A stretch of 64,000 nucleotides of DNA from positions 1,054,001 to 1,118,000 of the forward strand of contig NZ_CP035733.1 in NCBI RefSeq assembly GCF_009768975.1. Reading direction: 5' to 3'. Origin of the DNA: Sphingorhabdus lacus (GTDB taxonomy: Bacteria; Pseudomonadota; Alphaproteobacteria; Sphingomonadales; Sphingomonadaceae). This document shows, one piece after another, positions 15,886 through 43,226 of this stretch. The notes beneath the pieces are model-generated. The model worked only from the letters and a program-made list of their open reading frames with translations, was not told where the DNA came from and searched no databases. Positions within the stretch are counted from its first letter, which is position 1; the number at the start of each line of letters is the position of its first letter. The position numbers and the translations under genes were made by a program.

Positions 15886-19206
<3,321 letters not shown>

Positions 19207-19209
19207 TCT

Positions 19210-19551
19210 CTATTCCATGCTCACATAGGCTTCGGCGCCCATGCGCTCAAACTCTTCCGTTATGCATGAAAAGGCCGATGTGCCCTCTGCCTGGCTGAGC
19301 TTGATCATTACGCCACTGGTGCCTTTTGTTTCTTCTACGGTCATGGTCACGCCATCAACGACAGACGTTTCGGATGTTGTCGAGGGGCCGAAACGCGCGG
19401 TCTGCAGCTTGCAGTTGGCCTTTAACTCGGCAAATTGCGCTTCGGTCATCGCCGTTTTGGGCCCCGAACTGCCACTGCCCGCCCCCCCGCACGCGCCGAG
19501 GAGCAGCGTCGCGCTGGAAATAAAGACGATGTTGGCGCGTTCGAAGCTCAA
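19210..19551 (-). CDS. Small lipoprotein encoded between carA and carB
   Basis: This is a 113-residue protein with a hydrophobic N-terminus and a lipobox, LLLGACGG, with acylation at C21, so it is exported and lipid-anchored. A Gly/Ser-rich linker follows, then a small domain with two cysteines (C47 and C95) that could pair. I do not recognise the domain. The only plausible start is TTG at 19549-19551, which overlaps the carA stop as TTGA. The gene is therefore translationally coupled to carA and ends 3 bp before carB. Insertion of an envelope lipoprotein between the subunits of a cytosolic enzyme is unexpected. Confidence 0.72.
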   Translation of the reverse strand: MSFERANIVFISSATLLLGACGGAGSGSSGPKTAMTEAQFAELKANCKLQTARFGPSTTSETSVVDGVTMTVEETKGTSGVMIKLSQAEGTSAFSCITEEFERMGAEAYVSME

Positions 19552-20792
19552 CCCATCATCCCCGCAAATTTCTCGAACAGATAATGGCTATCCTGCGGCC
19601 CAGGAGAGGCCTCGGGGTGATATTGCACGCTGAACGCGGGCTGATCGACGAGTTCAAAGCCGCAATTTGACCCGTCAAACAGACTGGTATGCGTCGCTTT
19701 GGCATTGGCTGGGAGCGTGTCCGCATCGACAGCAAAGCCGTGGTTCATGCTCGTAATCTCGACCCCGCCGTCGGACAGGCGCTTGACCGGATGGTTCGCG
19801 CCGCGGTGGCCCTGATGCATCTTCTCCGTCGTCGCGCCGACCGCGAGGGCGAGCATCTGGTGGCCGAGGCAAATGCCGAACAGCGGCTTTTTCGTGGCCA
19901 ACCATTGCTGAATGACCGGCACCGCATAGACGCCGGTTGCTGCAGGGTCGCCAGGGCCGTTGGACAGGAACAAGCCATCCGGCGCGTGCGCCATGATCTC
20001 GTCAAAGGCTGCCGTCGCCGGTACCACCGTCACGTCACAACCGACATCGACCAGATTGCGCAGGATATTGTGCTTGATGCCATAATCGATGGCAACGACC
20101 TTGGGTTTTTGCCTTCGGGGTGTCTCGACTTCGCTCGACACGAACGGAGTTATAGAACTGCCATCACCTTCACCGTTCGTGTCGAGCGAAGTCGAGACAC
20201 CCATCGGCCCTGCATAACCCTCGCCAAGCTTCCACAAACCCTGGTCCCAGCCATAGGTCTGCAAGGCCGTGACATCTTTCGCCAGATCCATTCCTTCCAG
20301 CCCGGCCCAGGCCTTGGCCTGCGCGAGCAAAGCGGGAATGTCGAACTTGCCGCTCGAAGAATGCGCAATGACGGCATTCGGCGCTCCATTGATGCGGATC
20401 AGGCGGGTCAGCGCGCGGGTGTCGACGCCGGAGATACCGATGCGGCCATTGGCCTTCATCCAGGCATCAAAATGCTGCGTGCTGCGGAAATTCGACGGAT
20501 CGGTCACATCCTGACGCACGATCGCGCCCAGCGCATGGGGGTTCAGCGCCTCCACATCCTCTGGGTTGGCACCGACATTGCCGATATGGGGAAAGGTGAA
20601 GTTGATGATCTGCCCGGCATAGGACGGGTCGGTCATGACCTCTTGATAGCCGGTCATAGCGGTGTTGAAGCAGACTTCGCCCACCGCCTGTCCTTCGGCG
20701 CCAAAGCCCCTACCCCAGACAACCTCGCCAGACGCCAATACCAATACGCCTGTCGCTCCGGTGGGCGCGCGCGTAGAGGTGGGGTCGGCCAT
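19548..20792 (-). CDS. carA: Carbamoyl-phosphate synthase small subunit (glutaminase)
   Basis: This 414-residue protein has an N-terminal CarA-specific domain (about 14-190) and a C-terminal class I glutamine amidotransferase domain (about 231-412). The triad is C308 in GICLGHQML and H392/E394 in YHPEASPGP. The oxyanion strand LSNGPGDP is intact. It supplies ammonia to CarB. The protein is about 25-30 residues longer than usual. The extra part, residues 198-227 between the domains, is encoded by a perfect palindromic repeat (20118-20202) read in frame. Both catalytic halves look intact, so the enzyme is probably active with a longer linker. Confidence 0.95.
   Translation of the reverse strand: MADPTSTRAPTGATGVLVLASGEVVWGRGFGAEGQAVGEVCFNTAMTGYQEVMTDPSYAGQIINFTFPHIGNVGANPEDVEALNPHALGAIVRQDVTDPSNFRSTQHFDAWMKANGRIGISGVDTRALTRLIRINGAPNAVIAHSSSGKFDIPALLAQAKAWAGLEGMDLAKDVTALQTYGWDQGLWKLGEGYAGPMGVSTSLDTNGEGDGSSITPFVSSEVETPRRQKPKVVAIDYGIKHNILRNLVDVGCDVTVVPATAAFDEIMAHAPDGLFLSNGPGDPAATGVYAVPVIQQWLATKKPLFGICLGHQMLALAVGATTEKMHQGHRGANHPVKRLSDGGVEITSMNHGFAVDADTLPANAKATHTSLFDGSNCGFELVDQPAFSVQYHPEASPGPQDSHYLFEKFAGMMG
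20118..20202. repeat. 30-bp perfect inverted repeat inserted inside carA
   Basis: The left arm 20118-20147 and right arm 20173-20202 are exact reverse complements (30 of 30), separated by 25 nt. Each arm also contains a short internal hairpin (GTGTC with GACAC). The arm core CTCGACTTCGCTCGAC resembles a dispersed palindrome I recall from sphingomonad intergenic regions. Length is compatible with the carA frame and no stop codon is introduced. The element encodes CarA residues 198-227. Confidence 0.9.
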
Positions 20793-39400: not shown

Positions 39401-39421
39401 TTTCCCCCGCTTTTCGCCGTC

Positions 39422-39492
39422 ATGCTGAACTTGTTTCAGCATCTTATTTTACAACCTGGCAAAATACTAAGACCCTGAAACAAGTTCAGGGT
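39422..39492. repeat. Double palindromic repeat between sdhE and mfd
   Basis: Two hairpins lie 29 nt apart. ATGCTGAA pairs with TTCAGCAT (39422-39442), and ACCCTGAA pairs with TTCAGGGT (39472-39492). The central 15-mers CTGAACTTGTTTCAG (39425-39439) and CTGAAACAAGTTCAG (39475-39489) are exact reverse complements, so the whole also folds as one long inverted repeat. This is a REP/BIME-like layout. No T-tract follows either hairpin. Confidence 0.8.
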
Positions 39493-39549
39493 GACGTAGT
39501 GATGTGCGACTGGCTTGATTTGCAGATTGATGCGGTTCGATAGGTTTTC

Positions 39550-42500
39550 ATGCCCGACATCCAAAGAATCATAACGGCCAAGTCACCTCTCACCCTGTCG
39601 TCGGTGCCGTCCGGCTTCGCGCCGCTGCTGCTTGCCGATCTGACACGTGCTGCAAAAGGGCGGACATTGTACATCGCGCCCGACGATAGCGCGATGCGCG
39701 CCCTTGCCGATGCGGTTCCCTTCTTTGCCCCCGAAGTCGAAATCTTGCAGCTTCCGGCGTGGGATTGCCTCCCCTATGACCGCGCCTCGCCTTCCGTCGC
39801 GGTCACATCGCAACGTATGTCCACCCTGCAAGCTTTGCAGCAACCGACATCCAAAAAGCAGTTGGTGCTGACCACCATCGGTGCGGTCATCCAGAAATAT
39901 GTGACGCCCTTCCGCATCCGCCAAACGGGCGAGCGGCTGACGGCAGGACGCGAGATCACACGCGAACGGCTGGCCTCGCTGCTGCAATCCAACGGCTATT
40001 TCCGCGTCGATACCGTTGCCGAAGCGGGCGAGTTTGCGATCCGCGGCAGTATCGTCGACCTGTTTCCGGCGGGCAGCGAATTTGGCCTGCGCCTCGATTT
40101 CTTTGGCGACGAGATTGAAAGCATCCGCCGTTTCAACCCGTCGGACCAACGCAGTATCGATCGGGTCGAGCATTTCGATATCCTGCCCGCTGTTGAAGCG
40201 TTGATGGACGAGGAAGCAATCAAGCGGTTCCGCGTCGGCTACCGTGAACGATTCGGCGTCACTGCCACCGGCGATCCTCTTTATCAGGCCGTGTCCGAAG
40301 GCCGCCGCTTGTCCGGTATGGACCATTGGTTGCCGCTATTCGAAGAACGCATGGCGACGATCTTCGACCATGTAGGTGCAGATGCGCTGGTTATCCGCGA
40401 TGCGGGCGCTATCGCCGCAGGGCAATCACGGCTGGATGCAATCGCCGATTATTACGACAACCGCGTCAAGGCGCAGGTCGCCGAACCCGGCAGCTACCGT
40501 CCCTTGCCACCCGAAATGCTCTATCTTTCAGGCGATGAAGTTGAAAAGGTGTTGGCCGACAATGCCGCACATCTTCTGACCCCGTTCGCGCAGCCGGATT
40601 CCGACCGGACCATCGATTTTGCGATCGCCGCCGCCCGCGATTTTGCCCCCGAACGCACGCAAAAGGCAAATGTGTACGAGGCTGTCGCTGGCCATCTGAA
40701 ATCACTTTTGAAGGCGGGAAGCCGCCCCATCATCGCCAGCTATTCCAACGGCGCGCGGGAACGGCTGAAGGGTTTGCTGAAAGATCATGGTGCCCCGCCC
40801 CTTGCCGATGCCGATGGTTGGCAAGCGGCGCTCGGGCTTGCTGCCCCGGCCAGTGGACGCGGTACCGTTGCCATGGTCGTCCTGCCCATCGACCATGGAT
40901 TCACGTCGAGCGATATCGCGCTGATCAGTGAGCAGGATATGCTCGGCGACCGGCTTGTGCGCCGTCACAAAAAACGCAAATCCGCAGATGCCTTCCTCGC
41001 CGAACTGGCCGCGCTCAGCCCCGGCGATCTGGTTGTGCATCAGGATCACGGGATTGGCCGCTATGAAGGGCTGATATCTATCCCCGTCGGCAACAGCCCG
41101 CACGACTGTGTGGCGTTGAGCTATTCGGGTGGGGACAAGCTCTATGTTCCTGTTGAAAATATCGATGTCCTGTCGCGCTATGGCTCGGATAGCGAGAATG
41201 TTACGCTCGACAAATTGGGCGGCGAAGCATGGCAACGGCGCAAGTCGAAGCTGAAAGAACGCATTAGGGCCATTGCGCACGAACTGCTGAAAACCGCTGC
41301 CGAACGGGCCCTGCGCCCCGGTGCGGTCATCGAAGTTGATGATCAGGCTTATGCCAGCTTTGTCGACCGTTTCCCCTATGAAGAAACCGAAGACCAGTTG
41401 CGCGTCATTGACGAGGTGCTGGAAGACCTGTCGGCGGGCAAGCCCATGGACCGTCTGGTCTGCGGCGATGTCGGCTTTGGCAAGACAGAGGTCGCGATGC
41501 GCGCCGCCTTTGCCGTGGCATTGGCCGGGCATCAGGTTGCCGTCATAGCGCCCACAACCTTGCTGGCGCGGCAGCATTATACCAACTTCGTTGAACGATT
41601 CCGCGACCTGCCGCTGAAACTCGGACGGCTTTCGCGTCTTGTGCCCGCCGCCGAAGCCACCACCACGCGCGACGGTCTGGCAGATGGCACGGTCGACATC
41701 GTGATCGGTACCCATGCTGTCCTTGCCAAATCGCTGAAGTTCAAGCGGCTCGGTCTGGTCATCGTGGATGAAGAACAGCGCTTTGGCGTCAATCATAAGG
41801 AACAGTTGAAGGCGCTGAAGACCGACGTCCATATGCTGACCCTGACCGCGACCCCCATTCCCAGGACCTTGCAGATGGCGATGTCGGGCTTGCGCGAATT
41901 GTCGGTAATCCAGACCCCGCCGGTCGACCGGCTCGCCGTACGCACCTATGTCATGCCATGGGATCCCGTTGTCCTGCGCGAGGCATTGCTGCGCGAACAT
42001 TATCGCGGCGGGCAAAGCTTTTTCGTGGTGCCGCGCATTGCCGACCTGACCGAGATTGAAGAATTCCTGCGCACCGAAGTGCCCGAAATCAAATATGTCA
42101 CCGCGCACGGCCAGATGTCGGCAACGCAGGTCGAAGAGCGGATGAGCGCCTTTTACGAAAAGCGTTATGACGTCCTGCTGTCGACGACCATCGTCGAAAG
42201 CGGTCTTGATATCCCCAGCGCCAACACACTCATCATCCACCGGGCCGACCGCTTCGGCCTCGCGCAGCTTTACCAGTTACGTGGACGTGTTGGCCGGTCC
42301 AAGACGCGTGCCTATGCCTATATGACGCATGAGGCGAACCGCGTGTTGACCGAAACGGCGGAAAAACGGCTCAAGGTGTTGGGCGATCTGGACAGCCTTG
42401 GCGCCGGATTCCAACTTGCCAGCCATGACCTCGACATTCGCGGCGCAGGCAATCTGGTGGGCGACGAACAGTCGGGGCATATCAAGGAAGTCGGTTTCGA

Positions 42501-43035
42501 ACTGTACCAGTCGATGCTGGAGGATGCGATTTTGGAAGCGCGGGCGGATTCGCAAGGGCTCGCCAAACCGCGCGGCAGCTTCTCGCCGCAGATCACCATC
42601 GATGCACCGATCCTGATCCCCGACGATTATGTCCCCGACCTCTCAGTCCGCATGGCGCTTTACCGCCGCTTGAACGAACTGGAAGAAGGTCAGGATATCG
42701 AAGGCTTTGCCGCCGAAATCACCGATCGTTTCGGTACCATTCCGGAACCGACGCAAAATCTGCTCAAGCTTATCCAGATCAAGCAAAATGCGCTTGTCGC
42801 ACAGGTCGCCAAGATCGAAGTTGGCGCACGCGGAACGCTGGTCAGCTTCCACGAAGACACCCCGCCCAATGTTCCGGGCCTGCTCGCCTATGTCGCCAAA
42901 TTGGGCGAAACGGCAAAGCTGCGACCCGACAGCAAACTCGTCATCAACCGCGTGTGGGGCGACCCTGCGTCACGGTTGAACGGATGTTTGCAGCTGTCGA
43001 AGGGCCTTGCCAATCTGGCGCGCAAGGCGGGGTAG
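39550..43035 (+). CDS. mfd: Transcription-repair coupling factor Mfd
   Basis: This 1161-residue ATPase removes RNA polymerase stalled at DNA damage and recruits UvrA. The N-terminal UvrB-like part lies at 10-340. The CarD-like RNA-polymerase-interaction domain is at about 490-560 (GDLVVHQDHGIGRYEGL). The RecG-like motor has Walker A GDVGFGKTE (about 639-646), DEEQRFGV and QLRGRVGRS. The C-terminal TRCF domain lies at about 1010-1110 (IPDDYVPDLSVRMALYRRL). Domain order and length are normal. Confidence 0.97.
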   Translation: MPDIQRIITAKSPLTLSSVPSGFAPLLLADLTRAAKGRTLYIAPDDSAMRALADAVPFFAPEVEILQLPAWDCLPYDRASPSVAVTSQRMSTLQALQQPTSKKQLVLTTIGAVIQKYVTPFRIRQTGERLTAGREITRERLASLLQSNGYFRVDTVAEAGEFAIRGSIVDLFPAGSEFGLRLDFFGDEIESIRRFNPSDQRSIDRVEHFDILPAVEALMDEEAIKRFRVGYRERFGVTATGDPLYQAVSEGRRLSGMDHWLPLFEERMATIFDHVGADALVIRDAGAIAAGQSRLDAIADYYDNRVKAQVAEPGSYRPLPPEMLYLSGDEVEKVLADNAAHLLTPFAQPDSDRTIDFAIAAARDFAPERTQKANVYEAVAGHLKSLLKAGSRPIIASYSNGARERLKGLLKDHGAPPLADADGWQAALGLAAPASGRGTVAMVVLPIDHGFTSSDIALISEQDMLGDRLVRRHKKRKSADAFLAELAALSPGDLVVHQDHGIGRYEGLISIPVGNSPHDCVALSYSGGDKLYVPVENIDVLSRYGSDSENVTLDKLGGEAWQRRKSKLKERIRAIAHELLKTAAERALRPGAVIEVDDQAYASFVDRFPYEETEDQLRVIDEVLEDLSAGKPMDRLVCGDVGFGKTEVAMRAAFAVALAGHQVAVIAPTTLLARQHYTNFVERFRDLPLKLGRLSRLVPAAEATTTRDGLADGTVDIVIGTHAVLAKSLKFKRLGLVIVDEEQRFGVNHKEQLKALKTDVHMLTLTATPIPRTLQMAMSGLRELSVIQTPPVDRLAVRTYVMPWDPVVLREALLREHYRGGQSFFVVPRIADLTEIEEFLRTEVPEIKYVTAHGQMSATQVEERMSAFYEKRYDVLLSTTIVESGLDIPSANTLIIHRADRFGLAQLYQLRGRVGRSKTRAYAYMTHEANRVLTETAEKRLKVLGDLDSLGAGFQLASHDLDIRGAGNLVGDEQSGHIKEVGFELYQSMLEDAILEARADSQGLAKPRGSFSPQITIDAPILIPDDYVPDLSVRMALYRRLNELEEGQDIEGFAAEITDRFGTIPEPTQNLLKLIQIKQNALVAQVAKIEVGARGTLVSFHEDTPPNVPGLLAYVAKLGETAKLRPDSKLVINRVWGDPASRLNGCLQLSKGLANLARKAG

Positions 43036-43066: not shown

Positions 43067-43226
43067 CCTCTCCCCTTTAGGGGAGAGGATACGAAGACTT
43101 AGCCATCAGGCTTAGGCGAAGTTGGTGAGGGGGAGTTCGGGCACAAACCTCACCGTCCAGCCCCTCTCCGCTGCGACTAGGCGGCAAGCCGCCAAGTCTC
43201 GCACCTCTCCCCTAAAGGAGAGAGGT
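43067..43226. repeat. Composite palindromic repeat between mfd and the EAL gene
   Basis: The left end is a 22-bp near-perfect palindrome (43067-43088, 10-bp arms CCTCTCCCCT/AGGGGAGAGG). The right end, 43203-43226, is a related palindrome with 7-bp arms. The two ends are also imperfect reverse complements of each other. The interior holds GGTGAGG/CCTCACC and GGCGGC-AA-GCCGCC stems. The whole 160-bp element fills the gap between two convergent genes. It looks like a dispersed mobile palindrome, not a terminator or CRISPR, and encodes nothing convincing. Confidence 0.75.

Follow-up and report, generated by a model that had tools for sequence, protein, structure and literature searches.

How does a long and perfect palindrome come to lie inside the reading frame of carA in Sphingorhabdus lacus, and where would the peptide that it encodes have come from? 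The locus belongs to a stretch of 64,000 nucleotides analysed here as a whole (the window; contig NZ_CP035733.1, positions 1,054,001 to 1,118,000), and the features that matter, numbered from its first letter, are the following.

19548..20792, minus strand: carA, carbamoyl-phosphate synthase small subunit (414 aa), an open reading frame that runs through the palindrome
20118..20147, plus strand: left arm of the palindrome, from repeat finding, member of a dispersed arm family
20148..20172, unstranded: spacer of the palindrome, 25 nt, from repeat finding
20173..20202, minus strand: right arm of the palindrome, from repeat finding, exact reverse complement of the left arm
15886..19206, minus strand: carB, an open reading frame on the same strand downstream of carA, used as control gene in the survey of relatives

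The initial annotation of this DNA reported an exact 30-bp inverted repeat with a 25-nt spacer in the carA frame, and this is borne out: the arms are 30 nt each and 100% complementary, they head the inverted-repeat list of the window, and the 22-bp core of the palindrome, with up to 3 mismatches allowed, matches twice within the window where 0 matches are expected. The element corresponds in frame to CarA residues 197-225, a correction of the 198-227 first given, and it does fall in the linker between the two domains, being flanked by the Pfam matches CPSase_sm_chain (17-142) and GATase (234-410). The stretch from MDLA to VVAI comprises 68 residues in this CarA and 39 in most genus members read, therefore the insert amounts to 29 codons, within the 25-30 extra residues originally estimated. 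Both domains and the fold are those of CarA as judged from Pfam, a PDB sequence and structure; E. coli CarA (PDB sequence) aligns on either side of the insert, leaving window residues 193-230 unaligned, and in the AlphaFold model the only internal segment with pLDDT below 50 is 198-218. The model has a normal CarA fold with the insert as a disordered loop, and translation of the palindrome is predicted to yield about 29 disordered, hydrophilic residues. The genome forms a single contig and the relatives G016 and G025 have a related insert, which makes an assembly artefact unlikely. An RNA gene was also considered and rejected, as the Rfam matches are only hairpin look-alikes (microRNA families), all below the gathering score.

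The palindrome is not confined to carA. A search of the single-contig genome (3,458,643 bp) with a degenerate pattern of the arm, which reads CCGTTCG...GACACC, returned 16 arms, with 0 for the reversed-pattern control, so that the repeat sought by the genome search proposed earlier is present elsewhere. We call this type class A; the class labels A-D used below are our own. The 16 arms comprise the carA pair and 7 other pairs, the latter with a constant offset of 51 nt and with CGTTCG (once CGTTCC) outermost, whereas the carA copy is inside-out, with the opposite arm order and an offset of 54. This reversal sets carA apart from all seven other pairs of the genome (L001, L004-L009); among the relatives described below, the inside-out order is found in 8 of 9 class-A CarA inserts and the usual order in all 5 class-A inserts of valyl-tRNA synthetase (ValRS).

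One of the other pairs (genome position about 330401-330478; L004 735-1682, minus strand) also lies inside an open frame, at the start of cysH. The frame encodes phosphoadenylyl-sulfate reductase (NF002537, 8e-80, from frame residue 75; Pfam PF01507) and the pair spans about frame residues 37-63. Because no in-frame ATG, GTG or TTG occurs between the pair and the conserved part, at least the second arm seems, from the sequence, to be translated, with an uncertain start codon. Another pair (L007 308-1543, minus strand) shares the CarA phase and lies in the open frame that precedes a FemAB-like gene (PF04339), although the start codon of this gene possibly follows the pair. For the other five pairs no gene-like frame was found, one of their frames (in L006) having been scanned with Pfam. 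Open frames over class-A arms in L006, L170 (one place with L175), L180, L184 (overlapped by L189 and L194) and L190 have no Pfam match and were taken as spurious, while in L181 and L196 the frames continue into recognisable proteins that, by inspection, likely start after the arms.

CarA linkers were then compared among relatives. A CarA profile search matched 41 of 45 genomes of the genus, 145 of 149 of the family and 140 of 147 of the order, or by hand count 212 distinct genomes in the family group of the window (the Sphingomonadaceae group, f1) and 76 others. Palindromic or palindrome-derived (decayed) linker inserts of at least four classes were found in 22 of the 212 family-group genomes, the linkers having been read where the match spans at least 1140 bp, in the split gene of G107 and in some shorter matches, so that small inserts may be missed. 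In the other families of the order, none of the 76 genomes has a CarA match long enough for an insert. Most Rhizobiales-type loci read have the 39-residue MDLA..VVAI stretch, as do most genus members. The alignment of close relatives first proposed as a check therefore finds the insert absent from most of them, and there is neither one linker common to sphingomonad CarA nor a palindrome restricted to carA, either of which would have spoken against a mobile element. The inserts by class are:

class A (window type): G000, G016, G025, G085, G089, G096, G158, G175, G238
class B (CCCCTCCC...GGGAGGGG type): G027, G029, G036, G063, G084, G148, G189, G286
class C (CTGAGC.TGTCGAAG): G066, G107, G122, G291
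class D: G228

Twenty of the 22 inserts entered a shuffle test (G096 and G107 were left out), and 17 of these 20 have an inverted repeat that is reached by at most 1 in 100 shuffles; G029, G066 and G286 miss this threshold and are called decayed from the encoded peptide. Class B-like inserts occur in three further loci outside the count (L062, L070, L076), and longer linkers in which no palindrome was found are present in L129, L133, L138-L141, L144-L146 and L150. In the carA gene of G107 (L147), an N and a duplicated stretch stand beside the class-C insert, which looks like an assembly scar and suggests that assemblers stumble on such hairpins. Plasmid copies were seen at 10 places in 8 Sphingobium records, and the 8 places listed fall under no annotated feature of a gene table that is incomplete. 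As a control, CarB (1106 aa) was matched in 117 of 119 family genomes, some matches being partial, and by match length inserts of more than about 30 nt occur in just two, G167 and G137 (L199, L200), near residue 150; these were read and are non-palindromic. The window itself holds other palindromes: a dispersed-looking one of the CGTCATGCTGAACTTGTTTCAG type at 39418-39496, just upstream of the open reading frame 39550-43035, with similar sequence in L001 and in the ValRS insert of L221, and a class-B-like pair (CCTCTCCCC..GGGGAGAGG) at 43067-43225, between the open reading frames ending at 43035 and 43262.

A second enzyme carries inserts of the same kind. In G085 the frame of valyl-tRNA synthetase runs through a class-A element, at a gap of Thermus ValRS (1gax). 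A valS search matched 146 of 149 genomes, many of the matches breaking at about profile position 471, and 40 genes, picked mostly for a split or long match, were examined together with L191; the sample is biased, and its counts give no frequency. The loop, located after TLGWP (L203-L242, L191) and within the catalytic domain match, was measurable in 40 of the 41 genes, that of G096 being excluded as it offers no left anchor. It has 8-11 residues in 15 of the 40 and an insert of 20-58 residues in the other 25, of which 21 are palindromic at no more than 1 in 100 shuffles (not G191, G094, G089 and G130). Classes A, B and C and further types are represented, and some genes have class B or C-like inserts at a second point (FCDWYLELIK). 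The ValRS loop of S. lacus itself is empty. In valS of G130 (L232) a third position holds the segment RHSGASRNP..DPGLRRGD, which looks, as we take it, like a translated CGTC-type repeat.

The class-A elements of CarA (9) and ValRS (5) share a single phase for each arm in 14 of 14 cases: plus arms read PFVSSEVET-like and minus arms VSTSLDTNG-like in either arm order, and the cysH copy is in this phase as well. Three A+ and two A- fuzzy matches outside inserts, left out of the phase table, also follow it. The other class-A phases are arginine-rich and open in the consensus, except for one plus-arm variant. With close relatives merged into about 11 lineages, the chance of such agreement would be about 2e-5 if phases were equal. 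Over six other pairs of the genome, open strand readings number 9 in the phase used, compared with 8 and 4 in the two alternatives; real copies are therefore unequally open, about 1e-4 (0.43 to the 11th power, by hand arithmetic) is the fairer figure, and the phase argument is weakened accordingly. Class C plus arms keep one phase in 8 of 8 cases, where one alternative has a stop, and class C minus arms have mixed phases (5, 2, 2). Selection may act on the phase. A bolder proposal, to which we give tentative and clearly minority credence, is that sphingomonad repeat families are shaped to be safe when translated, with a stop-free arm phase that yields a flexible acidic/hydroxylated peptide and is kept by selection, the enzyme loops being sockets in which unrelated palindromes plug in and exchange.

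REPINs, which are associated with RAYT transposases, are dispersed inverted pairs of short imperfect palindromes, and the pairs described here resemble them in being dispersed and inverted. They differ in that the S. lacus genome has no Y1 transposase (PF01797) over the cut-off, and hence no REP-flanked Y1/RAYT gene. The domain was detected in 4 of 45 genus genomes and in 5 of 12 chosen genomes, and the core patterns of classes A-D are absent from 11 Y1 loci fetched from relatives.

Our preferred reading, to which we assign a probability of roughly 0.8, is that the carA feature is a REP-like pair whose insertion was tolerated at a permissive loop, and that the ValRS loop has likewise been occupied repeatedly by unrelated families. 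A non-autonomous REP-like palindromic pair would enter CarA at the surface loop that immediately precedes the amidotransferase domain, presumably by transposition. Such pairs would insert in many places, insertions within genes normally being purged, and would be tolerated at this loop where the insert is in frame, free of stops and read in the acidic/hydroxylated phase, presumably with near-neutral effect on the enzyme. A tolerated insert would later decay through point mutation, and the CarA and ValRS loops may be so permissive that unrelated palindrome families occupy them repeatedly. The idea in the initial annotation that a mobile palindrome can create new protein sequence at a tolerant linker gains support from the dispersed copies, the empty relatives and the disordered-loop model.

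It is conceivable, although we consider it rather doubtful, that the class-A insert goes back to a single old event, passed on by descent or through homologous recombination and repeatedly lost. The window and G025 inserts agree at 19 of 25 spacer positions and have the left junction CCGATGGGTGTC in common, and the same inside-out arm order in eight of the nine class-A CarA inserts fits common descent. Against this, the insert state changes at least 21 times in a tree built from 96 CarA proteins with the linker removed (a quick tree with many weak branches, from which L072, L094 and L147 were dropped), and some inserts match arms elsewhere in their own genomes. In G089, which has 154 class-A arms, and in G175, the arm variant of the CarA copy equals a variant listed elsewhere in the same genome, as it does in G158 in the 4 matches listed of 125; in G175 the arms and outer flanks, CACCCTCTC and GGGTTT, equal those of another copy, the spacer being partly different. 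A single old insertion also leaves classes B, C and D unexplained. Repeated insertion at a permissive loop is nevertheless unlikely to be the whole history. Genus inserts of classes A and B have a common right flank (K.PRVVAI or KPKVVAI) that is absent from the empty linkers of the crown, and no clean pair of empty and filled linkers was found, the linker beside the palindrome of G063 also differing from that of its nearest empty relatives; replacement, recombination or loss therefore also took part, and gain, recombination and loss were probably all involved. No target-site duplication was established for the inserts.

The clustering of several unrelated classes at the same few codons, with 5 of the 104 class-A arms of 45 genus genomes in the CarA loop and a right flank common to class A and B inserts, could also mean that the CarA and ValRS loops are true insertion hot spots, where a target feature attracts palindromes or where resident and new ones recombine or swap. 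We regard this as unlikely, as inspection, rather than a program search, revealed no common target sequence, and local tolerance combined with purging elsewhere also yields clustering. Far less probable still is a function that maintains the palindrome, such as a hairpin in the mRNA at which ribosomes slow down ahead of the folding of the second domain. With 30 bp the window copy forms a perfect stem, and linker RNA with an insert has a folding energy between -0.40 and -0.61 kcal/mol per nt (23 rows), compared with an average of -0.39 (sd 0.05; the most stable at -0.49) for the 72 rows without a classified insert, L130 having been dropped; but stable folding follows from palindromy and the ranges overlap. 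Moreover, the palindrome is missing in most relatives, decayed copies persist in G029, G066 and G286, and the ValRS site lies within the catalytic domain match.

Intragenic REPs, in Rickettsia and in sphingomonad tRNA synthetases, are already established. According to the main text of one report, REPs of the GTAG and CGTC families, frequently as head-head or tail-tail dimers 20-30 codons long, lie in frame in many conserved genes, including tRNA synthetases of S. alaskensis and E. litoralis, and in recB two Xanthomonas species have different REPs at approximately one position (PMC3733652). The elements studied here are similarly short palindromic units repeated in the genome, paired in inverted orientation and in frame in conserved genes, sphingomonads included, and the inside-out arm order of carA resembles the tail-tail dimers of that text. 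They differ in the arm, which begins with CCGTTCG and has neither the GTAG nor the CGTC tag at one end. The words carbamoyl and valyl are absent from this main text, whose gene list is in the supplement, and neither many classes at one site family-wide nor a fixed phase was found in the part of it consulted. The available text on Rickettsia palindromic elements describes in-frame fusions in conserved protein genes, with 19 reading frames mentioned and the guanylate kinase element described as neutral (PMC2229807). The comparison with Rickettsia drawn in the initial annotation holds as a way of working, a palindrome in frame in a conserved protein gene; those elements are of 105-146 bp and hosted by Rickettsia, the present ones by a sphingomonad (PMC2229807). 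In nematomorph mitochondria, as far as the accessible part of the report goes, inverted repeats are likewise translated within protein genes, both arms encoding conserved residues and seemingly actively maintained, whereas the carA segment is an insert absent from most relatives and able to decay (PMC6649704). Beyond these three sources, no account for sphingomonads, CarA or ValRS was found among open-licence papers, and no description came to light there of a fixed phase or of unrelated palindromes converging on single sites.

Different inserts at one position of two enzymes, set against empty relatives, constitute a natural experiment on repeat DNA making new protein sequence, in which tolerance, phase selection and decay are measurable. 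They also carry a warning, as a palindrome within a sphingomonad coding frame may encode part of the real protein and may leave an assembly scar. The different palindromes at one CarA spot in related genomes suggest how repeat DNA can supply proteins with new sequence at tolerant sites.
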